IMG/VR virus record: IMGVR_UViG_3300043418_000072
Coordinates: 124,001 to 188,000 of that record
DNA length: 64,000 nucleotides
Strand: one strand, 5' to 3'
From: a virus
Part shown: positions 12,414 through 45,740 of the stretch, piece after piece
How the letters are laid out: every line of letters begins with the position of its first letter
How positions within the stretch are numbered: the first letter of the stretch is position 1
Position numbers and translations under genes: made by a program
The notes under the pieces: model-generated
The model's input: the letters and a program-made list of their open reading frames with translations, nothing else
Told to the model about the DNA's origin: nothing
Databases searched by the model: none

Positions 12414-12442
12414 GGTAACCCTTAATTATTTGCTATGCGTTT

Positions 12443-12471
12443 ATTATAACAAGGAAATCATTATGGGTCAA
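12443..12471 (-). promoter_or_regulatory. sigma70-type promoter
   Basis: Minus strand TTGACC, 17-base spacer, TATAAT; transcribes 12240-12413. Confidence 0.87.
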
Positions 12472-12479
12472 CCAAAATT

Positions 12480-12960: not shown

Positions 12961-12968
12961 CGATGATG

Positions 12969-15674: not shown

Positions 15675-15676
15675 GA

Positions 15677-26499: not shown

Positions 26500-26773
26500 G
26501 TTGTTTACTCAGTATATCAAAAAGTGTGCCAATTTTAAAAACTGCTATATTGTCGGCAGGCTCCTCTACATCGAGTGCAGAGTGGAATTCTATTAGTGTG
26601 CGCATTGCAATCTGCCCAAATGAAATGCCAAACAGTTCAACCCATCTAGTTTTCATTAAGGACTTTGTTCCGTCAAATGTTGCATAGTAGCAATCATCAA
26701 TGATGTCGATACTAACTTTAACCCCGAGAGGTTTTAGTTTAGCTTTGCATTTATCAACAAATTCAAAATCCAT
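26483..26773 (-). CDS. hypothetical protein at the end of array I
   Basis: 96 aa, MDFEFVDKCKAKLKPLGVKV. One of only a few genes here ending in TAG. It lies downstream of the LRW array and overlaps the last member by TAATG; it does not have the LRW tail itself. Function unknown. Confidence 0.62.
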   Translation of the reverse strand: MDFEFVDKCKAKLKPLGVKVSIDIIDDCYYATFDGTKSLMKTRWVELFGISFGQIAMRTLIEFHSALDVEEPADNIAVFKIGTLFDILSKQHEQTL

Positions 26774-27039
26774 TAGGACCACTTTAGTGTAAACATCATT
26801 GCATCTTGCTCTCGCTTGAATGCAAAGTAACTGCCGACATTACGCCACTCGCTACTTTTGAGATTCTCGTAGCACCAGCGCTCTTGTTTATCTGTGGTCT
26901 CGGCTTTGACGTGGTACGGCCAATACTTCTTGTTTAGTACTCTCATGCGATGTTCCTCATCAATTTGGGCCCAAAATGCTCTGCTTCGTGGGCCTTCAAA
27001 ACAGCTTGGGTACATGCTGCTGATATCATTATCGATCAC
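26773..27039 (-). CDS. LRW-tail family protein
   Basis: About 88 aa from a GTG at 27039 overlapping the upstream TGA (ATG 27045 is possible). Middle TTDKQERWCYENLKSSEWRN, end FAFKREQDAMMFTLKWS. The family pattern is an aromatic middle with W-C, then a strand F-x-F and D-A-x-x-F-x-L-K/R-W at the C-terminus. Confidence 0.68.
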   Translation of the reverse strand: MIDNDISSMYPSCFEGPRSRAFWAQIDEEHRMRVLNKKYWPYHVKAETTDKQERWCYENLKSSEWRNVGSYFAFKREQDAMMFTLKWS

Positions 27040-27251
27040 GCCCATTTTAGTAGAAATGCAGTTATCTCTGCCCGTGTTTTAAACTTAAACGTGTCAAAGC
27101 TCGTGCGGCGCCCGTAGCCAACCTGATCACACCATTTTTGAACGGGATCCATGTCCTCTTCACGCAGGAAAGATTCGTAGCCCCGCGGAGCAACGGGCAT
27201 CGTTGCACGAAGCTGCTTACCCTCGCGTAGCCATTTGATCTTCTTTTCCAT
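27036..27251 (-). CDS. LRW-tail family protein, first gene of a sub-operon
   Basis: 71 aa, with VQKWCDQVGYGRRTSF and end FKFKTRAEITAFLLKWA. Its ATG at 27251 is only five bases from the -10 box of the promoter at 27257-27285, so its mRNA is probably leaderless. Confidence 0.72.
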   Translation of the reverse strand: MEKKIKWLREGKQLRATMPVAPRGYESFLREEDMDPVQKWCDQVGYGRRTSFDTFKFKTRAEITAFLLKWA

Positions 27252-27256
27252 GCTGT

Positions 27257-27285
27257 ATTATAGCATAACACCCAATTTAGGTCAA
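27257..27285 (-). promoter_or_regulatory. sigma70-type promoter with near-zero leader
   Basis: Minus strand TTGACC, 17-base spacer, TATAAT, then ACAGC and ATG. The -35 contains the TGA of the upstream gene. Confidence 0.84.
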
Positions 27286-27494
27286 CTCCAACGTAAGCAG
27301 AATAAAGTTAATACTTTTTCATTGGGTACTACCACTGTCATTCCTTGCACTTGGGAATCGGTTTCTTTACACCAGTCTGCCAAGTCTTGGTAGTGTGCGC
27401 TCCAGTACATAATGTCTGACAGAACAATTAGGTGGCCACCATTAAACCATGCGTCCGTTTGCTCAGACTGTGTTGGTAGTACGTAGCGTGAAAT
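27282..27494 (-). CDS. LRW-tail family protein with non-canonical start
   Basis: An open frame ending EKVLTLFCLRWS is clearly a family member, with ADWCKETDSQ as its W-C motif. No ATG, GTG or TTG lies at the expected place; an ATT at 27492-27494, just after the stop of the upstream gene, gives 70 aa, the family size. The first ATG, at a deeper position, would give only 42 aa. Either ATT initiation or a decaying copy. Confidence 0.55.
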   Translation of the reverse strand: MSRYVLPTQSEQTDAWFNGGHLIVLSDIMYWSAHYQDLADWCKETDSQVQGMTVVVPNEKVLTLFCLRWS

Positions 27495-27495
27495 A

Positions 27496-27894
27496 TTAGC
27501 CCCACTTCAGCACGAATGCTGTCCTATCTTCGGCTCGTTTAAAGCAATAACGGTAGTTAATTTTATCCCATATAAATTCAGGATGCTCGTTGGAGCAGCG
27601 TGGTCCGAATGTTTCTTCACACCATGCATCAACTTGTTCGTAATGCGCCTGGGTTCCTTTGATGTTCCAGAATGCTCCTGCAGACAGGGGCAATCGTGCC
27701 CAATACCATTCCACGATGTTGTTTTCGGTTGCATGACTAGCGGCTTCATCCACGTAAGTCTCCCCGGTTTCGAGTTCGATTCCCATATCCATATGCTGCA
27801 CACCAATGATGTCAGTTGCGATCATTGTGGGCATGACCTTACGGATCATTGGGATCAAGATTTTCATTTGATCGTTGATATTCTTATCAGTCAT
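27496..27894 (-). CDS. LRW-tail family protein, long form
   Basis: 132 aa. A 90-residue N-terminal extension precedes the family part: VDAWCEETFGPRCSNEHPEF, then YCFKRAEDRTAFVLKWG. Overlaps the gene upstream by 8 bp. Confidence 0.7.
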   Translation of the reverse strand: MTDKNINDQMKILIPMIRKVMPTMIATDIIGVQHMDMGIELETGETYVDEAASHATENNIVEWYWARLPLSAGAFWNIKGTQAHYEQVDAWCEETFGPRCSNEHPEFIWDKINYRYCFKRAEDRTAFVLKWG

Positions 27895-28078
27895 TTTGCG
27901 TCCATTTCAATTCATACATAATGTAAACATCTTCATTCATCCAGAGATTATCCAGTCCGTAATTGTAGACTGTACCCCACCGGTCGCCTTCGGGCCCAAA
28001 GTTTTGCTCAAGCCAATGCCATATAGTGGCCTTACGTGGATGCCCCCAATGTTCAATAGCTAGGCCGTATTGCTTCAT
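27887..28078 (-). CDS. LRW-tail family protein
   Basis: 63 aa, MKQYGLAIEHWGHPRKATIW, then HWLEQNFGPEGDRWG and an end MYELKWTQND with four extra residues after the W. ATG 28078 overlaps the upstream TGA (ATGA). Confidence 0.7.
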   Translation of the reverse strand: MKQYGLAIEHWGHPRKATIWHWLEQNFGPEGDRWGTVYNYGLDNLWMNEDVYIMYELKWTQND

Positions 28079-28365
28079 AGCCATTTCAACTTGATAAACG
28101 CCAGCAGGTCTTCACGCACAATGTAGATAGCACGGTGCCTGCCGCCGTATATTCTCCAGCGTTCTTTTCCGCCGTTTTCTTCAATCCAGTCACCAAACCA
28201 ATAGCTACAGTTTAACCGACTCCACACATGGCCGTCGTCTTCTTTAAACCCGTACTCGCAGCCTGGCTCAACATAATACAGTCTATCGCCGTGTACCATA
28301 TCATGTTTTGGGTCATGCTTGGACCGAATCCACTCTTGTGAATTAGATCTAGGTCTTTCCATCAT
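28075..28365 (-). CDS. LRW-tail family protein
   Basis: 96 aa, MMERPRSNSQEWIRSKHD; ends REDLLAFIKLKWL. The middle has SRLNCSYWFGDWIEENGG. ATGA coupling with the gene upstream. Confidence 0.7.
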   Translation of the reverse strand: MMERPRSNSQEWIRSKHDPKHDMVHGDRLYYVEPGCEYGFKEDDGHVWSRLNCSYWFGDWIEENGGKERWRIYGGRHRAIYIVREDLLAFIKLKWL

Positions 28366-28574
28366 GCCCACCTCAGTGCAAACATTGCAGCATCTTGTTC
28401 TCGTGCAAAGTAGTATATACGATTTTCAGGGTTAACAAAATCCACTCCGTAATAATCGTAGTCCATATTTAAAATATTGTCCAGCAACCATATACGCAGG
28501 TCTCTAAACTGTCCAGTACTGCGCCATGGTACAGTGACTCGAATTGTACACCAATATTTCTCATGCCGACTCAT
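28362..28574 (-). CDS. LRW-tail family protein
   Basis: 70 aa, MSRHEKYWCTIRVTVPW; ends IYYFAREQDAAMFALRWA. In-frame sequence upstream of ATG 28574 is the tail of the previous gene read in another frame, so the downstream ATG is the start. Confidence 0.72.
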   Translation of the reverse strand: MSRHEKYWCTIRVTVPWRSTGQFRDLRIWLLDNILNMDYDYYGVDFVNPENRIYYFAREQDAAMFALRWA

Positions 28575-28810
28575 GACCACCTCAGTACAAACCATTCAGC
28601 GTCTTTTTTATCACGGAAATCAAACCATTCAATATCAAATGTACCGTCAATGGTTTCACTGCCCATGAACCCTGGGTGATCCTTGCCATAAGTCCAGCGT
28701 TTAAGATTGCCATTATGTACTTCCGGTGGCCCAAAGTTCTTGGTCATCCAATACCACATTTCAGACATTTCTAAAATCGTTCGCTGAGTATTCTTAGTAT
28801 AAACTTTCAT
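28571..28810 (-). CDS. LRW-tail family protein
   Basis: 79 aa, MKVYTKNTQRTILEMSEMWY; MTKNFGPPEVHNGNLKRWTY is the core and DFRDKKDAEWFVLRWS the end. GAGGTGG-type ribosome-binding site lies in the codons of the upstream gene's LRW tail. Confidence 0.74.
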   Translation of the reverse strand: MKVYTKNTQRTILEMSEMWYWMTKNFGPPEVHNGNLKRWTYGKDHPGFMGSETIDGTFDIEWFDFRDKKDAEWFVLRWS

Positions 28811-29052
28811 GACCACCTTAATACAAACCAAGCAAACTTCTTTTCATCAATGACATTGTACCCAACTATCTTGTTATGGTACCCTGACAACAGTATCTCT
28901 ACACCGCACACAGTTTCTAGAAAATGCAAGTAAGCATCTTCTTTGATTTGGCCAGTGACGACCTTTGCTTCTGGCGGCAATATGATAGGCTTTTTAAGAA
29001 ATTCGTTATTAGCCTGTCTGACTACAATCTTTTTTACAAGGTCTAAATCCAT
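28807..29052 (-). CDS. LRW-tail family protein
   Basis: 81 aa, MDLDLVKKIVVRQANNEFLK; ends GYNVIDEKKFAWFVLRWS. TAATG overlap with its upstream neighbour and ATGA with the downstream one. Confidence 0.73.
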   Translation of the reverse strand: MDLDLVKKIVVRQANNEFLKKPIILPPEAKVVTGQIKEDAYLHFLETVCGVEILLSGYHNKIVGYNVIDEKKFAWFVLRWS

Positions 29053-29327
29053 TAACTCCACCTTAGTACAAACAACGCATACTCTTGCTCACATAAGAAC
29101 TTGAACGTATACCTGCCAGTGTATCTCCATTGGTCACCGGCAACGAGTTCTTCTTCACGCTCGGCACTTATAAGTTTGCACCCGCGTTCTCGCAACCATC
29201 TGTATGCTTTGACATATACACTATAGCTAGGCACAGTGTGATACAACCAGTTATTACAAGATGCACCCTCGCATCTATGCTCGTGGCGACAAATATCATC
29301 CCACTCTAACTTAACGGTATCTGTCAT
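29052..29327 (-). CDS. LRW-tail family protein
   Basis: 91 aa, MTDTVKLEWDDICRHEHRCE; YRWLRERGCKLISAEREEEL is the core, end FKFLCEQEYALFVLRWS. ATG 29327 overlaps the upstream TGA. Confidence 0.73.
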   Translation of the reverse strand: MTDTVKLEWDDICRHEHRCEGASCNNWLYHTVPSYSVYVKAYRWLRERGCKLISAEREEELVAGDQWRYTGRYTFKFLCEQEYALFVLRWS

Positions 29328-29662
29328 GACCACCTCAACACAAACAGAGTTAAGTCTTCCTTACTTGTAAACCAGAACTCGCGTCCAAATATTTGATATT
29401 GCGCTGTAGTGTTCAGGTGTATCCATTTCACAACCTCTGCTATTTGGTGGTTGCCTGGTGTAGCAAACTTGTCGCTAGTAAACGGTGCCTTGACCCATCC
29501 TTCTAACATAAGTCTTTGCCTTTTGATAGTGTTGACAATTTCGTCATCGATCTCTTTTTGCAATGCTGCTCCAACCTCTTGCCATACTTCGTCGTCCTCT
29601 GGCTTCTCAATGGTCCATTTGACTTTGATGGCACGAGTCTTTGCTGCAATAGTTTGTTTCAT
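29324..29662 (-). CDS. LRW-tail family protein, long form
   Basis: 112 aa, MKQTIAAKTRAIKVKWTIEK; ends FWFTSKEDLTLFVLRWS. The frame is open to 29794, but that part overlaps another gene and lacks a ribosome-binding site. Confidence 0.72.
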   Translation of the reverse strand: MKQTIAAKTRAIKVKWTIEKPEDDEVWQEVGAALQKEIDDEIVNTIKRQRLMLEGWVKAPFTSDKFATPGNHQIAEVVKWIHLNTTAQYQIFGREFWFTSKEDLTLFVLRWS

Positions 29663-30078
29663 GACCATTTTAGTAACAGCATTGAATACAGTTCTTCGTG
29701 TATATTGTAGTTGTTGAACGTGGGGTGACCAAATCGCAGTGCGCCTGTGTTGTAGTGACGGCACCACATATCGGGGTCTTGCTCTTGCACCCACCCGCTA
29801 ATAGTTGAAGGACGACAATGCACAGTGTACCATGTAGCACCAGCTAGAGCAAACGTATCTAACTTCTGGATTTGCTCCTTAATACCCATCTCGTAGTATC
29901 TGCTCTTTAGCATTTGGTAAGTCATTGTGGACTTGCCAGTTTGTCTACCTCCGGCAAAAATCATCATTTCATCAGGATGTATTCCACCTGAGATGTTTTG
30001 AAAAACAGATGAAGACCCGCGCGGCATTACTGCTTCCATTGTTTCAATATCCAGTACTACGGTGTTGCGTTTTGTCAT
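29659..30078 (-). CDS. Walker A segment fused to an LRW-tail domain
   Basis: 139 aa. The N-terminal part has HPDEMMIFAGGRQTGKSTMT, a full Walker A (GGRQTGKST) after a strand, while the C-terminal 60 residues are an ordinary family domain (DMWCRHYNTGALRFGHP, end ELYSMLLLKWS). The ATPase part has no Walker B and is too short to be a whole NTPase, so this looks like a fusion that captured the start of a P-loop gene. Confidence 0.66.
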   Translation of the reverse strand: MTKRNTVVLDIETMEAVMPRGSSSVFQNISGGIHPDEMMIFAGGRQTGKSTMTYQMLKSRYYEMGIKEQIQKLDTFALAGATWYTVHCRPSTISGWVQEQDPDMWCRHYNTGALRFGHPTFNNYNIHEELYSMLLLKWS

Positions 30079-30278
30079 AGCCATCTCATTATAAAAAGCA
30101 TCTTATGTTCTTCCTTAGAGAACATAAACATACTGTCAAGATATTCCCAATTCTGCCCGTAGTGCTCACGTAGCCAGTTACTAATTTGATACCAAGTACC
30201 GCCGGGAGTATACCAATCTCCTGTACGCTTAAAGCGCACATGGTACGGATATAGTTCTCTTGTAGTTTTGGTTCTCAT
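30075..30278 (-). CDS. LRW-tail family protein
   Basis: 67 aa, MRTKTTRELYPYHVRFKRTG; SNWLREHYGQNWEYLDSMF core and EEHKMLFIMRWL end. ATGA coupled. Confidence 0.72.
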   Translation of the reverse strand: MRTKTTRELYPYHVRFKRTGDWYTPGGTWYQISNWLREHYGQNWEYLDSMFMFSKEEHKMLFIMRWL

Positions 30279-30637
30279 TGGGCCCACATCAATGCTGCTA
30301 TTGTAGCATACTTTGTCTTTCCTACCCGAAACTTAATATCCAGAGTATCTATTTCATCTGTCCAAAATCCAAAAGTTCCCATTCTCCATTCCCAATCAAT
30401 GCCCTGACGCCCAACATGCTCTTCTAACCATGGGCGATAGTGATCGTTTGGATCAGCGGAGTCGACGATTACCTCTTCGCCATCAGGATCACAACCCAGA
30501 GAAATTGGGCCATTGGGCCAAATGACCCCAATGCTAGTGCCAGGCACAATGGTCCAGTAAAACCATTCTTTCCATTCTATAAACTTACCAAATTTTACCC
30601 AATCGCATAGCCTGTTCCAGAGATTCCGATCATCCAT
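30275..30637 (-). CDS. LRW-tail family protein, divergent
   Basis: 120 aa, MDDRNLWNRLCDWVKFGKFI; ends GKTKYATIAALMWAQ, where the R/K before W is replaced by M. Middle is acidic (DPDGEEVIVDSADPNDHY). Confidence 0.68.
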   Translation of the reverse strand: MDDRNLWNRLCDWVKFGKFIEWKEWFYWTIVPGTSIGVIWPNGPISLGCDPDGEEVIVDSADPNDHYRPWLEEHVGRQGIDWEWRMGTFGFWTDEIDTLDIKFRVGKTKYATIAALMWAQ

Positions 30638-30638
30638 A

Positions 30639-30869
30639 TTATTTCCATTTCAATGCAAAGAAGGTTGCATCTTTGCGATGTTTAAAGTAGAAAAATGTTG
30701 TGCCAAACGCACTAGCCATGCACCATGTGCCTAACCCTTCCCACTCAACTGGCTTGGACCAAACGTGGTTGCTATAACGAGGATTAGACCCAATATTGTG
30801 CTCGCACCATTCTTCCATTTCACCCTGTAAGTGATAACGATCTTTACCAAATTCAACAGTAGTTGTCAT
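30639..30869 (-). CDS. LRW-tail family protein
   Basis: 76 aa, MTTTVEFGKDRYHLQGEMEE; WCEHNIGSNPRYSNHVW core, end FKHRKDATFFALKWK. Confidence 0.73.
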   Translation of the reverse strand: MTTTVEFGKDRYHLQGEMEEWCEHNIGSNPRYSNHVWSKPVEWEGLGTWCMASAFGTTFFYFKHRKDATFFALKWK

Positions 30870-31099
30870 GACCATCTCAACATAAAAATTGTTCTATCCG
30901 ATTCATTAATAAAGCCCCAATGCTGTTCAGCCCTGTCGCTCCAGCTACCCTGTTTGTTTAACAGCACGGTGCGATATTCCTGTATCATCCAAAGGTAATA
31001 AGGAGTTTCGTAATGATTTACGTTCATCATGTAGTACTCACGTGATTTAGCGTAGTAGGGATCTCGTTCGCAGTAAAATTGGACTAGGTCTGTTTTCAT
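30866..31099 (-). CDS. LRW-tail family protein
   Basis: 77 aa, MKTDLVQFYCERDPYYAKSR; tyrosine-rich, ends GFINESDRTIFMLRWS. ATGA coupling on both sides. Confidence 0.73.
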   Translation of the reverse strand: MKTDLVQFYCERDPYYAKSREYYMMNVNHYETPYYLWMIQEYRTVLLNKQGSWSDRAEQHWGFINESDRTIFMLRWS

Positions 31100-31356
31100 G
31101 ACCATCTCAGCAAAAACGCTACCCTATCTTCATCATTACGAAACCAAAACTTTGCATTGTTAGCATACCAACGAGCACCGGGTTCCCATACACCCATTTC
31201 TGCACTGGCACCAAAGGTTTCTACACACCATGCTAACATATTGCGCCAATTGGTATTTGTGTCATTTAAGCTACTAGGAATCCACCAATCAAAGTCTGGT
31301 CTAACCGTGTAGTAGCGAGCTCCGTGTATGCGCCCTTCTAACAATTCAAACTTCAT
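31096..31356 (-). CDS. LRW-tail family protein
   Basis: 86 aa, MKFELLEGRIHGARYYTVRP; NMLAWCVETFGASAEMGVW core, end FWFRNDEDRVAFLLRWS. A good reference member since all family features are present. Confidence 0.75.
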   Translation of the reverse strand: MKFELLEGRIHGARYYTVRPDFDWWIPSSLNDTNTNWRNMLAWCVETFGASAEMGVWEPGARWYANNAKFWFRNDEDRVAFLLRWS

Positions 31357-31576
31357 TGCTTGCTTTCAGTGCAAACCAAGTTATGATTTCGTTATTCAGG
31401 CAATCGTGTCGAATCCATACACCATCGGGCGCACTAAACCATTCGCGGTCCACAAGCGGCATCGTGATACGGTTGTCACTAATGTGCAGGCGGCACAGGT
31501 CAATTTCCTCACTGCCCCATATAAAGTCCTTGGGAACGTGTTTGAATTTAAAAAATCGGTGAGTCTCGCTATACAT
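31346..31576 (-). CDS. LRW-tail family protein, altered tail
   Basis: 76 aa, MYSETHRFFKFKHVPKDFIW; ends EIITWFALKASNEV, so the W is replaced and the tail extended. TAATG overlap with the gene upstream; overlaps the next gene by 11 bp. Confidence 0.68.
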   Translation of the reverse strand: MYSETHRFFKFKHVPKDFIWGSEEIDLCRLHISDNRITMPLVDREWFSAPDGVWIRHDCLNNEIITWFALKASNEV

Positions 31577-31833
31577 TACTTTGCCCACTTTAGTGCGAAT
31601 AGCACTGCTTCTTCATCACATTCAAACTCAATGAACTTTTCACGAAGATACCCGGGACTGTGGTAGTAAGGATGGCGTGTGTTTGCTTTAAGCCATTCAT
31701 TGACTATATAATCCTTGTAGCTGATTTGCCATTGTGCTGGGACACCATCAATGGTGTGTGCATAGACAACACGGTGCAACACGGGAAAATTAACACCTGG
31801 GAATAACGGATTAGTTTTATAAGTTACTGCCAT
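31576..31833 (-). CDS. LRW-tail family protein
   Basis: 85 aa, MAVTYKTNPLFPGVNFPVLH; ends FECDEEAVLFALKWAK. The ATG lies inside the last codons of the upstream gene (10-bp overlap). Confidence 0.7.
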   Translation of the reverse strand: MAVTYKTNPLFPGVNFPVLHRVVYAHTIDGVPAQWQISYKDYIVNEWLKANTRHPYYHSPGYLREKFIEFECDEEAVLFALKWAK

Positions 31834-32051
31834 AACAATCCAAACAGTGTTGCATCTTCATCCCGATAAAAACGAATCGCCCATCGTTCGTCGCCATATC
31901 TGCCGGGCCCTTTGTTAACAATAGCAACACGGACGATGCAGGAACGTTCTTGAGGAAAGTGTGCGTCAAGCCACTTTTGTAGAGTTTCCATAGAGAACGT
32001 GCGACTGCCATTCATTAAGGTTGGGTATGGAATTTCAAGCAACTGCTGCAC
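31824..32051 (-). CDS. LRW-tail family protein
   Basis: 75 aa from a GTG at 32051 with AAGG upstream; LQKWLDAHFPQERSCIVRV core, end FYRDEDATLFGLLWQ. Confidence 0.68.
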   Translation of the reverse strand: MQQLLEIPYPTLMNGSRTFSMETLQKWLDAHFPQERSCIVRVAIVNKGPGRYGDERWAIRFYRDEDATLFGLLWQ

Positions 32052-32391
32052 CTTGCCTTAAATAGTACCAAGCCAAGCGACTTTCTAATAAGTCATAAAA
32101 TGCTCTAGCTTCGTGTTTGTGAAAAAACACAACTCCCCCAACCACATACATGTCTTCCCATCCGTATGTCATATCAGACCGTTGAAAATAATTTTTTTCG
32201 CTAATCCACAGTGTTTCTAGTTCGCCATTGTTTAGCGTAATGCCCAGGCCAACTTCACGGCATCCAATGTCTCGGAACAGAAGATCAACTAACTTGTCTC
32301 GCTGTCTAGCATTATGTGCAAAGTTATTCTCAGCCCATGTCACTAACCAAGTGTTGTTAGGAAGATCTGTGAGTTTAAAAGGATTAGACAT
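32035..32391 (-). CDS. LRW-family-related protein, divergent tail
   Basis: 118 aa, MSNPFKLTDLPNNTWLVTWA; VVFFHKHEARAFYDLLESRL is like the F-x-F...A-x-x-F part of the family, but the end is AWYYLRQGAAVA. Included as a remote relative. Confidence 0.62.
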   Translation of the reverse strand: MSNPFKLTDLPNNTWLVTWAENNFAHNARQRDKLVDLLFRDIGCREVGLGITLNNGELETLWISEKNYFQRSDMTYGWEDMYVVGGVVFFHKHEARAFYDLLESRLAWYYLRQGAAVA

Positions 32392-32392
32392 G

Positions 32393-32674
32393 CTATGCCC
32401 ATTTCAAACTAAACATTAACAGATCGCTTTCGCGGCGGAATACAAAGATCAAATCTGAGATATCTTCAAGATTGTCATCGTTGTCGTAGTACTCTTCTTC
32501 CTCTTCGTCGCTGCCTGGAACTAGTACTTCTTCATAGCAGTACCAATCTTCGGCGCCCAGCCATGTATTGTTTGCATGTCGCTTGCTACCAGGGCCAACG
32601 TTAGCGTTGAGCCATGCTTCGATTTGATCTAATTGATCGTGATGCTTGTGTGCTAGTTTAAGTTTATAACTCAT
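32393..32674 (-). CDS. LRW-tail family protein with acidic insert
   Basis: 93 aa, MSYKLKLAHKHHDQLDQIEA; WLNANVGPGSKRHANNTW core, an acidic stretch SDEEEEEYYDNDDNLEDISD, and end FRRESDLLMFSLKWA. Stops with TAG. Confidence 0.7.
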   Translation of the reverse strand: MSYKLKLAHKHHDQLDQIEAWLNANVGPGSKRHANNTWLGAEDWYCYEEVLVPGSDEEEEEYYDNDDNLEDISDLIFVFRRESDLLMFSLKWA

Positions 32675-32940
32675 GTGAATTTCATTACTAAAAATGTATA
32701 GGCTTTTGTAGCTTCTTCTAAGTTACGGTATTTCCAGTGTGTGCCAGCTTGCCCGCTGCGGCAGCGAGTTGGGTCAATCACATCGCGAACTTGCTCGGGG
32801 AAACTTTTCTCCCCTGCAGGTCGTTCTCGGTCCATCCAGTAATCATATGTCATCTCGACACGATAATGCACCTTGTCGCTTTTGCGATGGCGCCATTTGA
32901 TTAATCGGAAATTCTCGCCGCGGTGGATAATATTGTCCAT
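32671..32940 (-). CDS. hypothetical protein, possible remote LRW relative
   Basis: 89 aa from ATG 32940 (MDNIIHRGENFRLIKWRHRK); the end EEATKAYTFLVMKFT recalls the family's A-x-x-F-x-x-K pattern without the W. Confidence 0.58.
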   Translation of the reverse strand: MDNIIHRGENFRLIKWRHRKSDKVHYRVEMTYDYWMDRERPAGEKSFPEQVRDVIDPTRCRSGQAGTHWKYRNLEEATKAYTFLVMKFT

Positions 32941-32941
32941 A

Positions 32942-33418
32942 TCATTCAGTTCCCAAAATATTCCACATACCCAATTGCTCTTTGAGATGTCTATTCTCTG
33001 CTTGTACCTTGTCAATTACTTCGTGAGCTTTTTCAGCTTCTCTAACTGCGTAAAGGTGATTGGATTTTGCAGAGTCAATTGCCCGCTGCGCATCTACTAG
33101 AAGTTCTGTAACGGTGCGTCGACTTAACTTATCAAGTTCTTCACGAGCATCCGCTAAATCCATTTCGGCTACCGCACGGTCATCTTCTGCGTAGGCAACC
33201 ATCTTTTGCAAGTGGGTGATGTAATCTCCGGGGTAGTAGTCTTGGTGATCGTCTGTAAAGACCCATGTGTTAGGATCCATGCCTGCTTCGACTAAATCAC
33301 CAACAAGCCCACCGTTAGGTGCAGACAGCATGTTGATTAATCGTTTGACCAATGGATCAGTGCTAGTCAAATCCAAGTAGCGTAGCAGCTCTACGTCAGA
33401 TAGATGATTTAGATTCAT
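32942..33418 (-). CDS. coiled-coil hypothetical protein
   Basis: 158 aa, MNLNHLSDVELLRYLDLTST; long C-terminal helix (AREELDKLSRRTVTELLVDA) with heptad spacing. Not an LRW protein; it interrupts the array. Confidence 0.66.
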   Translation of the reverse strand: MNLNHLSDVELLRYLDLTSTDPLVKRLINMLSAPNGGLVGDLVEAGMDPNTWVFTDDHQDYYPGDYITHLQKMVAYAEDDRAVAEMDLADAREELDKLSRRTVTELLVDAQRAIDSAKSNHLYAVREAEKAHEVIDKVQAENRHLKEQLGMWNILGTE

Positions 33419-33725
33419 GTTTTAAAATCTCGAATAGTGTTGCATATTCAACCCAGGGTTCCATGTGAAAGCCTTTGCCCCACACTGCCCAGAATCGTTG
33501 TTTGTAAACAGTGCGTAACCAAATGCGATTACCACCTATTGTTTTAACTGGCCAAAGTGCAAACGTCTTGCGCCATGGGTAGCAGTCAGGCCCGTTGTAA
33601 ATTCGTTCAGTTATGTCCAACTCCACAGTCTCCGATCCTATTAGCAATGGCGCAATGCCTGTTGGGTTCTTGTCCCACTTAAGGCGATGTTCTCCGATTC
33701 GGCCATTTTTAAGACGAACTTTCAT
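33396..33725 (-). CDS. hypothetical protein in array I
   Basis: 109 aa, MKVRLKNGRIGEHRLKWDKN; IWLRTVYKQRFWAVWGKGFH and EYATLFEILKHESK, faintly like the family end. Overlaps the next gene by 23 bp. Confidence 0.6.
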   Translation of the reverse strand: MKVRLKNGRIGEHRLKWDKNPTGIAPLLIGSETVELDITERIYNGPDCYPWRKTFALWPVKTIGGNRIWLRTVYKQRFWAVWGKGFHMEPWVEYATLFEILKHESKSSI

Positions 33726-34006
33726 TAATACGAATGTGTTACCGACTCAGTATAGATTTGTTGTAGTAGATGGATTCTACCTGCGTACCGTAATTGTAAC
33801 ATACATTCACCTTTATCGTCAAATGTGGTTAGTTTTATAACCCCGGGCGAGCTGCGGTAGTGATAGACCTGCCCGCTGGTTTCAATACGCTGATGCTCAC
33901 CTTGCTGGGCGTCTAGTTGTATGCCATTGTTTTTGCAGTAGTCTACATCAGACTGGTCGGGGATAACATTGTGATCCAACACCCAAATTCTTACTATAGT
34001 TAACAT
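33725..34006 (-). CDS. LRW-related protein
   Basis: 93 aa, MLTIVRIWVLDHNVIPDQSD; C-terminal half contains DDKGECMLQLRYAGRIHLLQ, like the family F-x-L-R-W motif but followed by 16 more residues. Confidence 0.6.
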   Translation of the reverse strand: MLTIVRIWVLDHNVIPDQSDVDYCKNNGIQLDAQQGEHQRIETSGQVYHYRSSPGVIKLTTFDDKGECMLQLRYAGRIHLLQQIYTESVTHSY

Positions 34007-34263
34007 ACACTATCCGCAAAACTCAGAGCAAACATAATAGCAGCTTGTTCCCATTCAAATTGAAATGTAGTGTATTCACTATCCCAAGTTTTTGTGCCTC
34101 CACGCCAATCAATGTAGTAGCGTTTGAAATAGCCCTTATCGCCTGTTGGATAGTCGTCGCACCACTTCATCATAGCATTGACTTCAGGCGAGTTCTTTTT
34201 AATACGCACCTTATATCTAAAGTCGGGGTACTGATTCCCGCCACCGCCGTAAAATAATTCCAT
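34000..34263 (-). CDS. LRW-tail family protein, altered tail
   Basis: 87 aa, MELFYGGGGNQYPDFRYKVR; NAMMKWCDDYPTGDKGYFKR core, and FQFEWEQAAIMFALSFADSV near the end, where L-R-W has become L-S-F. TAATG overlap. Confidence 0.7.
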   Translation of the reverse strand: MELFYGGGGNQYPDFRYKVRIKKNSPEVNAMMKWCDDYPTGDKGYFKRYYIDWRGGTKTWDSEYTTFQFEWEQAAIMFALSFADSVC

Positions 34264-34481
34264 TAGCTCCACCTCAACACAAACATTGTAGCATCTTCTT
34301 CCCTGCGAAATTTAATCCATCCACCATGGCTATCCCAAGTGCCATTACCTAATGCTAGTCCCGGGTGACCGAATGTGGTCCAGCACCATCCGTATATTTC
34401 GCTCATCTCTGGACCTTGTGGACTGTAGTACATTTCCCACTCGTAGTATCGGTCCGGGCGATGTTTGAATTTAATATTCAT
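34263..34481 (-). CDS. LRW-tail family protein
   Basis: 72 aa, MNIKFKHRPDRYYEWEMYYS; YGWCWTTFGHPGLALGNGTW core, end IKFRREEDATMFVLRWS. A typical member. Confidence 0.75.
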   Translation of the reverse strand: MNIKFKHRPDRYYEWEMYYSPQGPEMSEIYGWCWTTFGHPGLALGNGTWDSHGGWIKFRREEDATMFVLRWS

Positions 34482-34897
34482 TACACACTCCAGTATAGAC
34501 TAAACATTACAGCATCTTGCTCATTGTTAAATGCAAAAAATAGAATGTTGTGGCTTAGACCCATGCACCCTTGCGTCCATTCGCCATCCCAACTCTTGTC
34601 AACTGGGAGGATATCTTCTCTCCATTTACCGGTGGCATTTGCTGCGCACCACGTGGTCATGTTATCAACTACGGTGATCCATCCTTGGCCATGCCGCCGT
34701 TCCAGTGGCACTGTGTCGTCAAACGGGACGAGGTAAGGGTAGCCACGATACACGTCCTTACGAATACTACCACCACGTGCGCAAAAATCAGGATCATTTA
34801 TGAGATCAAACTGGCGCTGAGTCCATCCCTTCTTCTTAAGGTAACGGGCATGTCGCCATGCTTGAAACCTACCTACCGTAGCGTGTAGTAACTTCAT
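34481..34897 (-). CDS. LRW-tail family protein, long form
   Basis: 138 aa. Helical basic N-terminus (GRFQAWRHARYLKKKGWTQR), then MTTWCAANATGKWREDILPV and end FAFNNEQDAVMFSLYWSV. Overlaps the upstream gene by 29 bp. Confidence 0.7.
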   Translation of the reverse strand: MKLLHATVGRFQAWRHARYLKKKGWTQRQFDLINDPDFCARGGSIRKDVYRGYPYLVPFDDTVPLERRHGQGWITVVDNMTTWCAANATGKWREDILPVDKSWDGEWTQGCMGLSHNILFFAFNNEQDAVMFSLYWSV

Positions 34898-35084
34898 CTA
34901 GTGTTTTCTTTGCTATTTTTCCTGACGGATGATCTGGGTGCATACGTGCGATATCATCTAGTGCAGTCCACATCAACTCGTGTTCGTGTTGTTGCTGGTA
35001 TACCTTATCCCGCAAGCGACTGGCATCCATAATGCTTAGGACACCAGCAATTAACTTGGGAAGGATACGAGCAAGGAATTCCAA
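34869..35084 (-). CDS. helical hypothetical protein
   Basis: 71 aa from a TTG at 35084 directly after the upstream stop (ATG 35030 is possible). RLRDKVYQQQHEHELMWTAL is a charged helix. Ends in TAG. Not an LRW protein. Confidence 0.52.
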   Translation of the reverse strand: MEFLARILPKLIAGVLSIMDASRLRDKVYQQQHEHELMWTALDDIARMHPDHPSGKIAKKTLDEVTTRYGR

Positions 35085-35312
35085 TTATAAGTACTTCAAT
35101 CTAAACATTGTTTCTGCTGCGTCATTGAAGAAGTCTAAGTAGACAGTAGTGATGTAACCTGTTTGTTCTCGGTAAACCTGATGATGGCGGTCGGTGAATC
35201 CTAACTCACGCTTCATTACAGATCGCAAGAGCCAAACACTAGGCTTGTCTGCGTACTCAATTTTAATCTGAGCTCGGATCTTGCGCCACTCAGTATCGGT
35301 TAGTGTGATCAT
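35085..35312 (-). CDS. LRW-tail family protein
   Basis: 75 aa, MITLTDTEWRKIRAQIKIEY; ends LDFFNDAAETMFRLKYL, with Y in place of W. Confidence 0.68.
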   Translation of the reverse strand: MITLTDTEWRKIRAQIKIEYADKPSVWLLRSVMKRELGFTDRHHQVYREQTGYITTVYLDFFNDAAETMFRLKYL

Positions 35313-35547
35313 ACTTTAACTTGAAAAAGGTTGCATCCTCATCTTTAAGTTTAGCAGTTACTCTGTAACGAAGAGAGTATGAGTGGTAATCGTTGCACTT
35401 GCTCCATTGCGGGGTTTCAATTGCATTAGCCATAACCCATTTCCCTGCATCACTTTGCTGCCATTCCCATAGAGGCCATGCGGCATAAAGGTCCGGGTCA
35501 TCAACATCCCCCACTGAAAATTCATGAACAGCTAGAGTCACCGCCAT
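35290..35547 (-). CDS. LRW-tail family protein
   Basis: 85 aa, MAVTLAVHEFSVGDVDDPDL; ends KLKDEDATFFKLKYDHTNRY. Start ATG 35547, or GTG 35541 overlapping the upstream TGA. Confidence 0.68.
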   Translation of the reverse strand: MAVTLAVHEFSVGDVDDPDLYAAWPLWEWQQSDAGKWVMANAIETPQWSKCNDYHSYSLRYRVTAKLKDEDATFFKLKYDHTNRY

Positions 35548-35720
35548 TTTAATGCAAATAGTGTAGCATCAGAGGGACTAGAGAAATCAAACCTATACGT
35601 GGGATTGTTACCCAGCATACTGTTTAAGTCTATTGTCCATCCCTTAATACCAAATTGTTGTCTGCACCAGCCGCCCGCCTCAAGCGCCTTATCGGCACCA
35701 TTAATTGTGATAGAGTTCAT
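35538..35720 (-). CDS. LRW-tail family protein, first gene of array I
   Basis: 60 aa, MNSITINGADKALEAGGWCR; QQFGIKGW core, end DFSSPSDATLFALKWR. The ATG at 35720 is six bases from the -10 box, so the whole array I transcript probably begins without a leader. Confidence 0.72.
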   Translation of the reverse strand: MNSITINGADKALEAGGWCRQQFGIKGWTIDLNSMLGNNPTYRFDFSSPSDATLFALKWR

Positions 35721-35726: not shown

Positions 35727-35755
35727 ATTATACACTAAATGCCTTTATGCGTCAA
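35727..35755 (-). promoter_or_regulatory. sigma70-type promoter of array I, near-zero leader
   Basis: Minus strand TTGACG, 17-base spacer, TATAAT, then AGTACT and ATG. The -35 overlaps the stop of 35752-36129. Confidence 0.85.
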
Positions 35756-39675: not shown

Positions 39676-39803
39676 TCTTTATCTCCTTTAACACAAGAAA
39701 TTTTGTCCGGGCTATACATCAACACAAAGTTACCAATATTAAATGATCCTAAAATTGATAGGCATAACACAAATCCGCCAATTGCTGCAAGGAAGGTTTT
39801 CAT
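39672..39803 (-). CDS. tiny membrane/secreted protein, 43 aa
   Basis: ATG 39803, TGA 39672. Begins MKTFLAAIGGFVLCLSILGS, a signal-like hydrophobic segment with Cys, then GNFVLMYSPDKISCVKGDKE. Its start overlaps the FGVEE gene's stop. Confidence 0.62.
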   Translation of the reverse strand: MKTFLAAIGGFVLCLSILGSFNIGNFVLMYSPDKISCVKGDKE

Positions 39804-40123
39804 TCTTCAACTCCAAACTTTTTACTCAATCGTTCAAATTCGGCTTTTTCAGCTTCTTCACGTTTGCGGTCATACTCAGCTTGTTCAGCTAGGCGCTTGT
39901 TAAATTCTTCATCGTTTTCTTCACGCACTATATACAACTCATAACGAGGTGATGGGTCGTTATCGTAATCGTAATAGAAGTTTCGATTATAGTCAAGCCG
40001 TGCATCCGGTCCATGTTCTCGGATCATTGCCTGCACACGCTCCAACACTGTTGCTAGTGTACCTTCAAACTCCCATGTGGAGACATCGTCCACCATGTCG
40101 TTAATTTTTCTACGTTGGGTCAT
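39800..40123 (-). CDS. hypothetical protein carrying an FGVEE tail
   Basis: 107 aa. MTQRRKINDMVDDVSTWEFE start, beta-like RYELYIVREENDEEFNKRLA, then a charged helix ending FERLSKKFGVEE. The body is unrelated to the MNERI family; only the tail is shared. Tail codons supply GGAG for the next gene. Confidence 0.68.
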   Translation of the reverse strand: MTQRRKINDMVDDVSTWEFEGTLATVLERVQAMIREHGPDARLDYNRNFYYDYDNDPSPRYELYIVREENDEEFNKRLAEQAEYDRKREEAEKAEFERLSKKFGVEE

Positions 40124-40147
40124 TCTTCAACTCCGAAGGCTTTATTG
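40120..40147 (-). promoter_or_regulatory. FGVEE tail sequence outside any gene frame, acting as ribosome-binding site
   Basis: Between the TAG of 40148-40444 and the ATG at 40123 the DNA reads TTCGGAGTTGAAGAATGA, identical to the FGVEE-encoding tail, but it is one base out of frame with the gene before it, so it is not translated as its tail. It still puts GGAG eight bases before ATG 40123. Confidence 0.7.
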
Positions 40148-40444
40148 CTACACAAATGCGATGCCCGATGACATAACGGCATAAACATCACAGGCGTTAT
40201 CAGTAAAAATGCCTCTTACTAGGTAACTTTCTTTTTCTGTTCCTACCATCAGTTTTGGCTCAAATGTATCACGATCCAATACCGTGCATTCAACATTTTC
40301 CGCAATAACTCTGTAATAGTTAGATGCTTTAGTAACTACCTGTTCTGTTACGGGTTTGCCATAATTATCAAAGGTAATTTCTTCGTAATGGTTGTAGATA
40401 TCATCTAATACACCCTGTGGGATTTCTTCACGATTTATAATCAT
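40148..40444 (-). CDS. hypothetical protein
   Basis: 98 aa, MIINREEIPQGVLDDIYNHY; beta-rich second half (CTVLDRDTFEPKLMVGTEKE, SYLVRGIFTDNACDVYAVM). Ends in TAG, ten bases before TAA and just before the out-of-frame FGVEE tail, which suggests a frameshift that removed its original tail. Confidence 0.66.
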   Translation of the reverse strand: MIINREEIPQGVLDDIYNHYEEITFDNYGKPVTEQVVTKASNYYRVIAENVECTVLDRDTFEPKLMVGTEKESYLVRGIFTDNACDVYAVMSSGIAFV

Positions 40445-40695
40445 TATTCAACTCCAAAATGTTCTTTTATATCGTTCGCACACAACATCGCACCATCAGT
40501 CACTGAACCTAAAATTCCCTTATAAGCACGGTCGTAGCACAACTTAGCACATTCCCGAACAATCAACTCGGCGAACTTTTCTAATCCGGGATTATCTGGA
40601 TCTTCTTGCCACATAGGCAATTCTTTACCCAAAGAATTCCATAATCTTTGTTTCAATCCTGCCTGTTCAGCAAGTTGTTTAATTCGTTCGTTCAT
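40444..40695 (-). CDS. MNERI/FGVEE family protein
   Basis: 83 aa, MNERIKQLAEQAGLKQRLWN; core KFAELIVRECAKLCYDRAY, end IKEHFGVE with TAATG overlap in place of ATGA. Confidence 0.75.
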   Translation of the reverse strand: MNERIKQLAEQAGLKQRLWNSLGKELPMWQEDPDNPGLEKFAELIVRECAKLCYDRAYKGILGSVTDGAMLCANDIKEHFGVE

Positions 40696-40952
40696 TCTTC
40701 AACTCCGAAATGTTCTTTAATCCTGTCTTTGATAACTTCAGAAACATTGCCATTGATACCATCTTCACGAGTATACCAAACCTGCTCCAAACATTCTTTC
40801 ACCAGCAGTCGGGCGAATTGTTCCACATCCATGTCGCCACCGTGAACAAACTTGTGTCCTGTGTAGACACTATCACCGTTAGCTTGTTCAACATAGCCAC
40901 CCTGCCAGATACCACCTGATTGGATGGCAAGTTCGTTTATACGCTTGTTCAT
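40692..40952 (-). CDS. MNERI/FGVEE family protein
   Basis: 86 aa, MNKRINELAIQSGGIWQGGY; core EQFARLLVKECLEQVWY, end RIKEHFGVEE. Confidence 0.75.
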   Translation of the reverse strand: MNKRINELAIQSGGIWQGGYVEQANGDSVYTGHKFVHGGDMDVEQFARLLVKECLEQVWYTREDGINGNVSEVIKDRIKEHFGVEE

Positions 40953-43990: not shown

Positions 43991-44170
43991 CTAACTCCAT
44001 TTTAAAACAAACATCATTTCATCCTCGGGCGTGTCAAACTCAACCATAAAGTACAAGTAATCGTCTTTACGGTAGCTGTCATGAAAATGCCCATTGGGAA
44101 TATCACTGAGCCCGCTTTCAATCATGCGTTGCTGAATGTTGACCCAGTCAATCATACGGTACGTTAACAT
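43991..44170 (-). CDS. LRW-tail family protein, short form
   Basis: 59 aa, ATG 44170 and TAG 43991. Begins MLTYRMIDWVNIQQRMIESG and ends EFDTPEDEMMFVLKWS, a clear family tail. Confidence 0.7.
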   Translation of the reverse strand: MLTYRMIDWVNIQQRMIESGLSDIPNGHFHDSYRKDDYLYFMVEFDTPEDEMMFVLKWS

Positions 44171-44171
44171 G

Positions 44172-44462
44172 TCATGCCCACTTTAGTAAGAACCAAGCAT
44201 ACTTTTGCTCGTCGAGCACTGTGGTGATAACCCTCTGTCCACTATTGTGATAGCGATACTCAAACCCATGCACATGTTTACACCATTCCCCAAAACCAAA
44301 GTCTGTGACTGTATCTTTAATCTCAGGCCACTGGCTCCATGCGTTTTGAATTGCAGTTAGTGCTTGATCCTTTGGTGCCATTATTTCCTTACAGAGGTTT
44401 GTGCCGTAGACGCTGTTTAGTTGCATCTTGCGATGCAATTTTGCCCATTCTTCTTTAGTCAT
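44172..44462 (-). CDS. LRW-tail family protein
   Basis: 96 aa, MTKEEWAKLHRKMQLNSVYG; FGEWCKHVHGFEYRYHNSGQ core, end LDEQKYAWFLLKWA. The end resembles that of 28807-29052. Confidence 0.73.
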   Translation of the reverse strand: MTKEEWAKLHRKMQLNSVYGTNLCKEIMAPKDQALTAIQNAWSQWPEIKDTVTDFGFGEWCKHVHGFEYRYHNSGQRVITTVLDEQKYAWFLLKWA

Positions 44463-44665
44463 GCAAACCTCAATGCAAACATGGTAGCATATTTTTCATC
44501 AGAAAAATACCAGTCAGACCATTCACCTTCACCGGTTTCCCACACATAAAACCACTCACCTCCATACTCGCCAATATTTTTTTCGCACCACTTAACTCTA
44601 GCCTCAGTGCGTTCATGGTGCCATCCATAGAGTCTGACTTCGGTCATTGGTTCACTTAATGTCAT
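44459..44665 (-). CDS. LRW-tail family protein
   Basis: 68 aa, MTLSEPMTEVRLYGWHHERT; VKWCEKNIGEYGGEWFYVW core, end FSDEKYATMFALRFA. ATG 44665 overlaps the upstream TGA. Confidence 0.73.
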   Translation of the reverse strand: MTLSEPMTEVRLYGWHHERTEARVKWCEKNIGEYGGEWFYVWETGEGEWSDWYFSDEKYATMFALRFA

Positions 44666-44856
44666 AGCCACCTCAATGCAAACAGTGTAGCATCTTCTTC
44701 TTTATGAAACCAAAATGTTCGGATAGTGTCCCATGCCCGACGCTTGCCATTAGGTTCCGGTGGTCCAAAGTTATCCAAGCACCACTTCCACGCGACCTGT
44801 GTACCACTTTCCCCGTATACATCACGAAGTTTCTTGCTGATTTTAATTTCAATCAT
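44662..44856 (-). CDS. LRW-tail family protein
   Basis: 64 aa, MIEIKISKKLRDVYGESGTQ; WKWCLDNFGPPEPNGKRRAW core, end FHKEEDATLFALRWL. Very close in the core to 28571-28810 in the other array. Confidence 0.75.
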   Translation of the reverse strand: MIEIKISKKLRDVYGESGTQVAWKWCLDNFGPPEPNGKRRAWDTIRTFWFHKEEDATLFALRWL

Positions 44857-45098
44857 GACCACCTCAACATAAACCAAGAGTACAATTCTTCGTCTTCAAA
44901 CTCGATCCAGTGCAGAACACTACTTTCAAATAAGTTGCCCACCTCTTCCATGTAGTACACTGCACGGTACTCAACCAGTGCTGCATTAACATAAGCGTCG
45001 GTTACTGCCTGTGGTCCCACTTGTTCTTGCAGGTGTGCAACAAATTTGTTCCACACAGGGATAGGTGCATAGTCTTTAACAAGATCCAATCGTATCAT
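44853..45098 (-). CDS. LRW-tail family protein
   Basis: 81 aa, MIRLDLVKDYAPIPVWNKFV; HLQEQVGPQAVTDAYVN core, end EFEDEELYSWFMLRWS. TGATG overlap with the upstream gene. Confidence 0.73.
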   Translation of the reverse strand: MIRLDLVKDYAPIPVWNKFVAHLQEQVGPQAVTDAYVNAALVEYRAVYYMEEVGNLFESSVLHWIEFEDEELYSWFMLRWS

Positions 45099-45265
45099 CA
45101 AAACCTCAGCGCAAACTCTGTGGCTTTTAACGGGTCACGAAAACGAAAGTCCCAGCCACAGCCATCAGAACTGCACACCCAATCATTATAGTCGAGATTG
45201 GCATGGCACCATTCTGCCCCGCTGGTGTAATCATCAATTGTTACTATTGCCCATTTCGCCATCAT
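45098..45265 (-). CDS. LRW-tail family protein, short form
   Basis: 55 aa, MMAKWAIVTIDDYTSGAEWC; ends FRFRDPLKATEFALRF. The frame is open far upstream, but ATG 45265 overlaps the previous TGA and gives the family size. Confidence 0.7.
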   Translation of the reverse strand: MMAKWAIVTIDDYTSGAEWCHANLDYNDWVCSSDGCGWDFRFRDPLKATEFALRF

Positions 45266-45543
45266 AAGTGCCTTAATGTAAACATAATTAGATTTTCTTC
45301 TTCGAAGAAGTCTGCATAACGCTTGCTGTATTCTGTATAAATGCGGCCACCACATGACCAAACATAATGATCAAACGCTTGACCAGCACCATAACGTAAG
45401 TTAAGTCGATCAAAGTGGTCAATCCAATGTCCCGAGGTCTTATACCCATTGTTTGCAGCCCACTTCTGGAAGATAGTGTTTAGCTGGTCGGATTCAATAC
45501 GTGCCTTTTTCATAAGGGAGTCTCTTGTATATTGCTTTTTCAT
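45262..45543 (-). CDS. LRW-tail family protein
   Basis: 93 aa, MKKQYTRDSLMKKARIESDQ; ends FFEEENLIMFTLRHL, with H in place of W. ATGA overlaps at both ends. Confidence 0.71.
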   Translation of the reverse strand: MKKQYTRDSLMKKARIESDQLNTIFQKWAANNGYKTSGHWIDHFDRLNLRYGAGQAFDHYVWSCGGRIYTEYSKRYADFFEEENLIMFTLRHL

Positions 45544-45740
45544 TTATGGATCAATGCAAACATTATAGCATCTTTTTCATTTTCGAAGTAAACGCCATGT
45601 CCTCCCATGCTAAAATGTCCGATTCCATCAAACTCTTCGCACCAAAGCAATGCCTCTATCCAACCAATGGTTTTTTGGTTTTCAGATAATGGAATGTATG
45701 TGTAGTCGCAATCCATTAGCATAGTTAGCTCTTGCTTCAT
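45540..45740 (-). CDS. LRW-tail family protein, altered tail
   Basis: 66 aa, MKQELTMLMDCDYTYIPLSE; ALLWCEEFDGIGHFSMGGH core, end FENEKDAIMFALIHK. Confidence 0.7.
   Translation of the reverse strand: MKQELTMLMDCDYTYIPLSENQKTIGWIEALLWCEEFDGIGHFSMGGHGVYFENEKDAIMFALIHK

Follow-up and report, generated by a model that had tools for sequence, protein, structure and literature searches.

Capsid protein pieces in arrays of portable small genes of jumbo phages: chimeras on a common scaffold and a possible role as decoys

A window of 64,000 nucleotides (bases 124001-188000 of the 354-kb IMG/VR virus record IMGVR_UViG_3300043418_000072) encodes, on its minus strand, two arrays of small overlapping genes, array I and array II, whose products share a C-terminal domain, the LRW domain. 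Profile comparisons show that the N-termini of a number of these proteins derive from the major capsid protein (MCP), so that the genes are chimeras of a core phage protein and the common domain. Further, the codons for the conserved protein tail also form the ribosome-binding site of the next gene, and the genes are gained, lost, and exchanged as whole units. Here, the evidence for these observations is presented, and the tentative proposal that the array proteins act as decoys against host defense sensors is weighed against other explanations.

26773 to 35720, minus strand: array I, 32 overlapping open reading frames (ORFs), of which 21 are confirmed members; read from 35720 to 26773
43991 to 47577, minus strand: array II, same family, 14 confirmed members; junctions mostly 4-nt ATGA overlaps

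Some predicted ORF starts extend into the upstream gene, the real starts lying at ATGA or TAATG overlaps, and starts were curated at these stop/start overlaps. Membership was assigned with a hidden Markov model (HMM) trained on 503 sequences from other phages, close relatives excluded, at a threshold of E<1e-3; 35 ORFs of the two arrays pass, and the best value among shuffled controls was 0.016 (n=1,040). In array I, ORFs 28807, 29659, and 35085 are marginal, ORFs 30275, 31346, 32035, and 32671 have no significant match to this HMM, and ORFs 32942, 33396, 33725, and 34869 are clear non-members. A family profile searched against the whole record returned 33 matches at E<=1, 32 of them inside the two arrays. 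Neighboring genes overlap at 27 of 33 junctions in array I and 15 of 18 in array II, and array I has a single large internal gap (27252-27495). An earlier note on this DNA, made from the sequence alone, had described about 29 consecutive paralogs with W-C/L-x-x-x-F-G in the middle and the tail F-x-F-x-x-x-x-D-A-x-x-F-x-L-R/K-W at the end. The motif-bearing run is indeed there, on the minus strand, and so is a single diverse paralogous family with widely different N-termini, as the other-phage HMM and its shuffled control bear out. The array is real but was slightly overcounted: the near-universal overlap of junctions agrees with the description of consecutive genes, and the confirmed number is lower, with four clear non-members interspersed. 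Since members are kin to each other, counts given here and below are not independent.

The N-terminus of g27496 matches phrog_138 (major head protein, gp23 type) with an E-value of 1.5e-6, and that of g29324 matches a different part of the same profile (E 0.001). Capsid-type matches of this kind recur in small array genes across 49 related records (the records used for comparison are metagenomic and incomplete). An HMM of true capsid proteins, run against 5,875 distinct ORFs, recovered essentially capsid proteins (or a capsid-like ORF) together with small array-type ORFs; in the latter, most of which are confirmed array members, the capsid segment is N-terminal (best independent E-value 1e-14). 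When 592 N-terminal parts were compared in an unbiased manner with 463 non-family core proteins, every match at E<=0.001 was to the capsid protein, with the sole exception of one non-member gene that matched itself, and shuffled queries gave none below 0.003. The pieces are about 24-66 residues long, and the full-length capsid protein is not among them. Segment A (MCP residues ~48-103) is found in 14 records (G000, G002, G003, G005, G008, G011, G013, G019, G021, G025, G028, G031, G035, and G045), segment B corresponds to MCP ~150-215, and segment C, which occurs in protein XYS97328.1 of Sinorhizobium phage Phosso (E 4e-7), to MCP ~321-375. The second halves to which segment A is joined are for the most part unrelated (median identity 0.24, against 0.54 in the segment itself). 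Between segment A and the capsid gene of the same phage, 29-43% of nucleotides differ (57-71% identical), and its conservation is therefore at the peptide level.

In T4 numbering, segment A spans gp23 ~84-131, with a core at 94-118. The Gol peptide comprises 29 residues of gp23, located in the first quarter of that protein, where conservation is described as highest; Gol binds EF-Tu, through which the Lit protease is activated (PMC3014915). By homology, segment A lies within the portion of gp23 to which the Gol region belongs, with Gol placed by the review's "first quarter" and not by residue numbers. The resemblance has a limit, in that Gol lies within an intact capsid protein, whereas the segment in the arrays is excised and fused to another domain in a run of small genes. 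One and the same capsid segment precedes different LRW domains (L109:6049-6447, L134:5313-5702, and others), and domains of the g26773 type (NKKYWPY) are found both with and without that segment, which suggests that shuffling also takes place within genes.

Other core proteins may have contributed pieces as well. A GxxTGKS Walker A motif was found in 10 ORFs, 9 of which carry the array tail, including g29659 and its copy in the close relative G002 (about 90% identical). The best source of this P-loop is a helicase of the gp41/DnaB type (z-score 9.1 for g29659 and 10.8 for its G004 copy, against the Phosso helicase); the remaining P-loop chimeras mostly score z 3-5 and one has no helicase match. 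A helicase origin of the P-loop pieces is thus likely. Terminase was considered as the source and rejected, as the helicase fits best in most P-loop chimeras, and matches of g29659 to the UvsX and NrdA PHROGs were near threshold and are not relied on. The NrdA active-site motif NLCxEI occurs in seven ORFs, including g44172, all seven with the array tail; these align to NrdA at the motif, with pairwise scores mostly not above the best of 300 shuffles. DxxSMYP, motif A of family B DNA polymerases, is present in g26773 and its relatives, a single subfamily in which the likeness to the polymerase is confined to the motif. The NrdA and polymerase origins are leads at the level of motifs. Because only conserved motifs can be recognized, the recognizable pieces are skewed toward them.

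27496 to 27894, minus strand: g27496, 132-aa chimera; residues 5-36 are MCP segment A (MCP ~53-84; T4 gp23 98-118 core), then the LRW domain
29324 to 29662, minus strand: g29324, 112-aa chimera; N-terminus is MCP segment B (MCP ~150-210; T4 gp23 256-305), then the LRW domain
29659 to 30078, minus strand: g29659, 139-aa putative chimera; Walker A GGRQTGKST, like the gp41/DnaB-type helicase; divergent LRW C-terminus
26773 to 27039, minus strand: g26773, 88-aa LRW member; N-terminal DNDISSMYPS is similar to motif A of family B DNA polymerases, at the motif level only
44172 to 44462, minus strand: g44172, 96-aa LRW member of array II; NLCKEI, compare SNLCTEI of NrdA

At many junctions, the final codons of a gene are TTG AGG TGG TCA TGA or a near variant, which encode L-R-W-S-stop and at the same time spell GAGGTGG, a strong Shine-Dalgarno sequence, with the ATG of the next gene then overlapping the stop. 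The exact 13-mer GAGGTGGTCATGA is present in seven copies in the window (28571, 29324, 44853, 45737, 45964, 46212, and 46433), where none is expected and none was found in shuffles. In a set of about 590 distinct members drawn from other phages, arginine is encoded by AGG at 9% of its positions in gene bodies, at 73% in coupled tails, and at 33% in uncoupled tails (Fisher p for coupled tails 8e-137 against bodies and 3e-5 against uncoupled tails); these p-values overstate independence because members share ancestry, although the effect is still large. The loci were collected with a degenerate DNA pattern that leaves the arginine codon free, and the enrichment is therefore not built into the search. 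In the window alone, AGG accounts for 17 of 25 arginine codons in tails and 14 of 212 in bodies (p 5e-12). The end motif described in the earlier note is thus present, but its last residues, L-R-W-S/A, are also constrained as nucleotides because the ribosome-binding site of the following gene is encoded there. Most uncoupled members retain the tail all the same (L/M/I-x-W/F/Y in 54 of 63, W in 42 of 63), which indicates selection on the protein motif in its own right as well.

Translational coupling across these junctions is inferred from their layout. Termination-reinitiation at ATGA is a known arrangement with the same 4-nt and 1-nt overlaps and a Shine-Dalgarno sequence within the upstream gene (PMC6728339; PMC10666635); it differs from the arrays in that here the ribosome-binding site is built into a conserved tail across a whole family. 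Since the tail of most members is the Shine-Dalgarno site of the next gene, the genes would be portable cassettes. The two promoters of array I are near-consensus for sigma70 (11 of 12 positions), and their -10 boxes end 5-6 nt before an ATG, which predicts that the promoter-proximal genes are leaderless. The layout of the first promoter is kept in G002, and the same layout is seen at two array-region promoters of record G011. With a first gene that has no leader and later genes that mostly use the ribosome-binding site in the preceding tail, each gene would be a self-contained unit.

35727 to 35755, minus strand: array I promoter, TTGACG-17-TATAAT; ATG 6 nt past the -10 box; predicted leaderless start
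35538 to 35720, minus strand: g35538, first gene of array I, predicted leaderless
27257 to 27285, minus strand: second in-array promoter, TTGACC-17-TATAAT with a TG extension; ATG of g27036 5 nt past the -10 box
28571 to 28583, minus strand: junction GAGGTGGTCATGA, at which the end of g28571 (LRWS) is the Shine-Dalgarno site and start of g28362

A second, unrelated tail, FGVE(E), encoded by GGAGTTGAAGAATGA (GGA GTT GAA GAA TGA), was observed in seven minus-strand genes of the window (6221-6998, 8299-8574, and 39800-40952), where it likewise supplies the ribosome-binding site and start of the next gene. A near-consensus promoter, TTGACCCATAATGATTT..TATAAT, occurs in about 15 minus-strand copies between 9517 and 59443; most non-array copies have a leader before the start, and in array copies the ATG follows immediately.

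Cassette turnover is directly visible in the comparison with G002, which lacks exactly g28362, g28571, and g28807, with the flanks joined at TTGAGGTGGTCGTGATG. Extra cassettes are present elsewhere in the array of G002, including one LRW-tail small gene in place of the 244-bp gap of array I; a 402-aa gene with the PP-loop-like motif SGGADSKTV (L126:8187-9395) also lies where the phage described here has these 244 non-coding bases. Between more distant relatives, array gene order is shuffled. Whole genes are thus the units of turnover, gained, lost, and exchanged at stop/start junctions, and with the ribosome-binding site in the tail and the start codon in the overlap, cassettes can be inserted, dropped, or swapped while expression is maintained. 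The arrangement recalls integron cassettes in that strings of exchangeable single-gene units are read from one promoter, but exchange in the arrays would occur by recombination and not by a dedicated integrase, and there is no room for attC sites because nearly all junctions overlap or abut.

28362 to 29052, minus strand: cassettes g28362, g28571, and g28807, missing from G002 and cut exactly at stop/start junctions
27252 to 27495, minus strand: large gap of array I, the site of the extra small gene and the PP-loop-like gene of G002

The age and exchange of the genes bear on how the array arose. Within the window, paralogs are at most 39% identical, while array orthologs in other phages are mostly 60-100% identical. 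In comparisons with distant relatives, several array genes have synonymous divergence (dS) of 0.2-1, whereas in most flanking core genes dS exceeds 1 or is saturated; though numbers are small, the low dS suggests exchange of array genes between phages. The pooled ratio of nonsynonymous to synonymous divergence (dN/dS), computed by a simple method, amounts to 0.15-0.20 in array genes, compared with 0.06-0.085 in those flanking genes that allowed a measurement, and by part it is 0.17 for the N-terminal and 0.12 for the C-terminal portion (G002 comparison). Array genes are therefore under relaxed purifying selection, at 2-3 times the dN/dS of their neighbors, with no evidence of the positive selection for which the earlier note had suggested a test. 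Its proposal of repeated duplication with fast diversification, if taken to mean recent events within this phage, is not supported by these values or by the distance between paralogs. Arrays of many similar genes have been noted in jumbo phages (PMC13282480), and those described here are alike in being large tandem arrays of related genes in genomes >200 kb; that review describes highly similar genes and duplication, as opposed to the divergent paralogs, cassette turnover, and core-protein chimeras reported here.

The family consensus consists of two strands, a WCxExFG helix, two further strands, and a final DAxxFxLRW helix. Its most conserved positions are hydrophobic or aromatic, and conserved catalytic residues are absent; such a scaffold suggests binding proteins. 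AlphaFold models of two divergent members (g34263: predicted local distance difference test score 87.7, predicted template modeling (TM) score 0.77, from a 77-sequence alignment; g45737: 85.5 and 0.72) share the C-terminal alpha-beta-beta-alpha half and differ in the N-terminal half, which is beta-beta in one and beta-alpha in the other. These two are thus not unrelated folds with only the last residues in common, the case that the earlier note had named as contrary to its reading. The LRW domain matched nothing in Pfam, PHROGs, NCBIfam, or PADLOC (which covers defense proteins, not inhibitors), and its predicted structures matched nothing significant in the PDB. Significant matches in BFVD were only to uncharacterized proteins of uncultured phages (best TM 0.89). 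A KH domain was considered for g45737, which has the type I order beta-alpha-alpha-beta-beta-alpha, and rejected (best Foldseek E 0.47, TM 0.45; GxxG not conserved), as was DNA mimicry as a general rule (median isoelectric point 6.5 and net charge 0 among window members).

34263 to 34481, minus strand: g34263, 72 aa, best family representative; AlphaFold model beta-beta-alpha-beta-beta-alpha
45737 to 45967, minus strand: g45737, 76 aa, divergent member; AlphaFold model beta-alpha-alpha-beta-beta-alpha

The LRW family is common in large IMG/VR contigs, with about 590 distinct members in uncultured jumbo phages. Among named phages, the family profile gave 42 matches in Phosso, 8 in Agrobacterium phage Atu_ph07, and 3 in Pseudomonas phage PA5oct, and zero in T4, GAP32, CBB, and Vibrio phage 2.275.O. 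With single members as queries, neither similarity nor tblastn searches of named phages returned a match, so that a profile was needed to reveal the family there, and the family consensus gave two weak Streptomyces matches only (E 6). The degenerate DNA pattern gave six scattered matches in bacterial genomes, taken as chance. In the stretches of Phosso that were read (1-16000 and 94000-118500), 49 ORFs match the family profile; they are arranged in several short runs, some between tRNA genes, and not in a single long array. The T4-type capsid protein of this phage group, measured on G002, is nearest to those of Vibrio phage 2.275.O, Phosso, and PA5oct.

The remaining features of array I are as follows.

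27036 to 27251, minus strand: g27036, member by the family HMM
27887 to 28078, minus strand: g27887, member by the family HMM
28075 to 28365, minus strand: g28075, member by the family HMM
29052 to 29327, minus strand: g29052, member by the family HMM
30075 to 30278, minus strand: g30075, member by the family HMM
30639 to 30869, minus strand: g30639, member by the family HMM
30866 to 31099, minus strand: g30866, member by the family HMM
31096 to 31356, minus strand: g31096, member by the family HMM
31576 to 31833, minus strand: g31576, member by the family HMM
31824 to 32051, minus strand: g31824, member by the family HMM
32393 to 32674, minus strand: g32393, member by the family HMM
32942 to 34006, minus strand: three non-member genes within the array (32942-33418, 33396-33725, and 33725-34006)
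34000 to 34263, minus strand: g34000, member by the family HMM
34481 to 34897, minus strand: g34481, member by the family HMM, with an N-terminal extension without a recognized source
35085 to 35312, minus strand: g35085, marginal member (E 0.41)
35290 to 35541, minus strand: g35290, member (E 6e-4)

Elsewhere in the window, the gene heading array II (47574-47930) ends in CTCSGFKFRGSCKHV, in which inspection by eye suggests a SWIM-like zinc finger, and a tRNA with a CUA anticodon, called tRNA-Pyl (50391-50465), and a tmRNA gene (55583-55981) are present, with amber suppression a possibility.

What the arrays do must be judged from the proteins that were copied and from the scaffold that carries them. 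The capsid protein is sensed by, or is an escape locus for, defenses that include Lit, CapRel, and possibly others (PMC9712102; PMC10286901), and DNA polymerase, helicase, and terminase are likewise sensed by, or escape loci for, defense systems (PMC10286901; PMC11348598). DSAD1, a phage protein, inhibits the defense protein DSR2 competitively (PMC10286901). Because the scaffold is of a binding type, the copied proteins are those that defenses sense, and DSAD1 offers a precedent, we favor the reading that the array proteins are decoys against defense sensors, a possibility that we put forward tentatively and hold to be somewhat doubtful. The array proteins would form a counter-defense repertoire, in which the chimeras would display epitopes of core proteins sensed by bacterial defenses and would occupy those sensors as non-productive decoys. 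As with DSAD1, a sensor would be bound in competition with its trigger; DSAD1 is a single gene, and its likeness to the arrays is one of proposed mode. The idea of a repertoire, raised in the earlier note as directed against many host targets or defenses, is supported as a plausible reading. The wider claim, that jumbo phages keep an exchangeable library of epitope decoys, with capsid, helicase, ribonucleotide reductase, and polymerase pieces on a common scaffold in cassettes linked by tail ribosome-binding sites, and that it blinds host defenses, we consider rather unlikely. Several observations weigh against the decoy reading. The most serious is that Lit is activated by the bare Gol peptide, so that a decoy would need to be an antagonist. 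In addition, most members have no recognizable core-protein piece, the NrdA and polymerase matches are at the motif level only, the capsid fragments are less constrained than the remainder of the chimeras (pairwise dN/dS ~0.3-0.6 versus 0.07-0.14, from few sites), and the fragments are not clearly nearer to the capsid protein of their own phage than to foreign ones.

Several other explanations can be set beside the decoy reading. The arrays could be a general repertoire for host takeover, a reading close to that of the earlier note, in which every protein has its own target in the host and the pieces of core proteins simply serve as handy binding peptides; a Gol-like piece, for example, might recruit EF-Tu and alter host translation. 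The small size and diversity of the proteins, their lack of conserved catalytic residues, and the consensus-like sigma70 promoters would suit this, as would the finding that the Gol region of gp23 binds EF-Tu and inhibits its GTPase (PMC3014915), but it leaves the choice of capsid, helicase, and perhaps NrdA and polymerase pieces unexplained, no common host partner is known, and we judge it unlikely. We think it improbable, too, that the arrays reflect selfish or near-neutral growth, with the repeated tails acting as a hot spot of recombination where genes and fragments accumulate, a few of them useful. Near-identical repeated junctions, gene-exact turnover, and fragments from very common phage genes are what such growth would produce; nearly all array genes are nevertheless under purifying selection, the segment A peptide is kept in its 14 records while synonymous sites diverge, and unbiased capture would not be expected to prefer one capsid segment.

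That the pieces represent conserved stretches of core proteins, or motifs of their active sites, is also what would be expected of weapons against competing phages, that is, dominant-negative subunits that poison the assembly or replication of co-infecting relatives. Because the fragments resemble the capsid proteins of their own and of foreign phages to about the same degree, however, such weapons would be expected to poison their owner, and no immunity gene was found, although no systematic search was made; this explanation is quite unlikely. The pieces might instead act as DNA or RNA, as copies of homing endonuclease or intein target sites or as antisense regulators. The active-site motifs of P-loop proteins, NrdA, and polymerases are favorite intein sites, and a homing endonuclease gene adjoins the capsid gene in PA5oct, as segD adjoins gene 23 in T4. 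A nucleotide identity of only 57-71% between segment A and the phage's own capsid gene, with the peptide conserved, makes action as nucleic acid very improbable. Lastly, it could be supposed that there is no protein family and that the shared tail results solely from encoding a ribosome-binding site, as the unrelated FGVEE tail does in the same window. This has next to no likelihood: it is ruled out by the tails of uncoupled members, by conservation throughout the domain, the WC helix included, and by HMM membership, and the two structural models share half of their fold.

If the decoy reading is true, the arrays would represent counter-defense by mimicry of a virus's own invariant parts, organized as a swappable library, of which no earlier description was found. 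Whatever their function, they document a large unannotated protein family of jumbo phages. They also show how a conserved protein ending can be set by the translation needs of the next gene, a trap in the reading of protein motifs, and the cassette design is a way for gene arrays to grow with expression intact. Phosso, Atu_ph07, and PA5oct provide concrete candidates in cultured phages.

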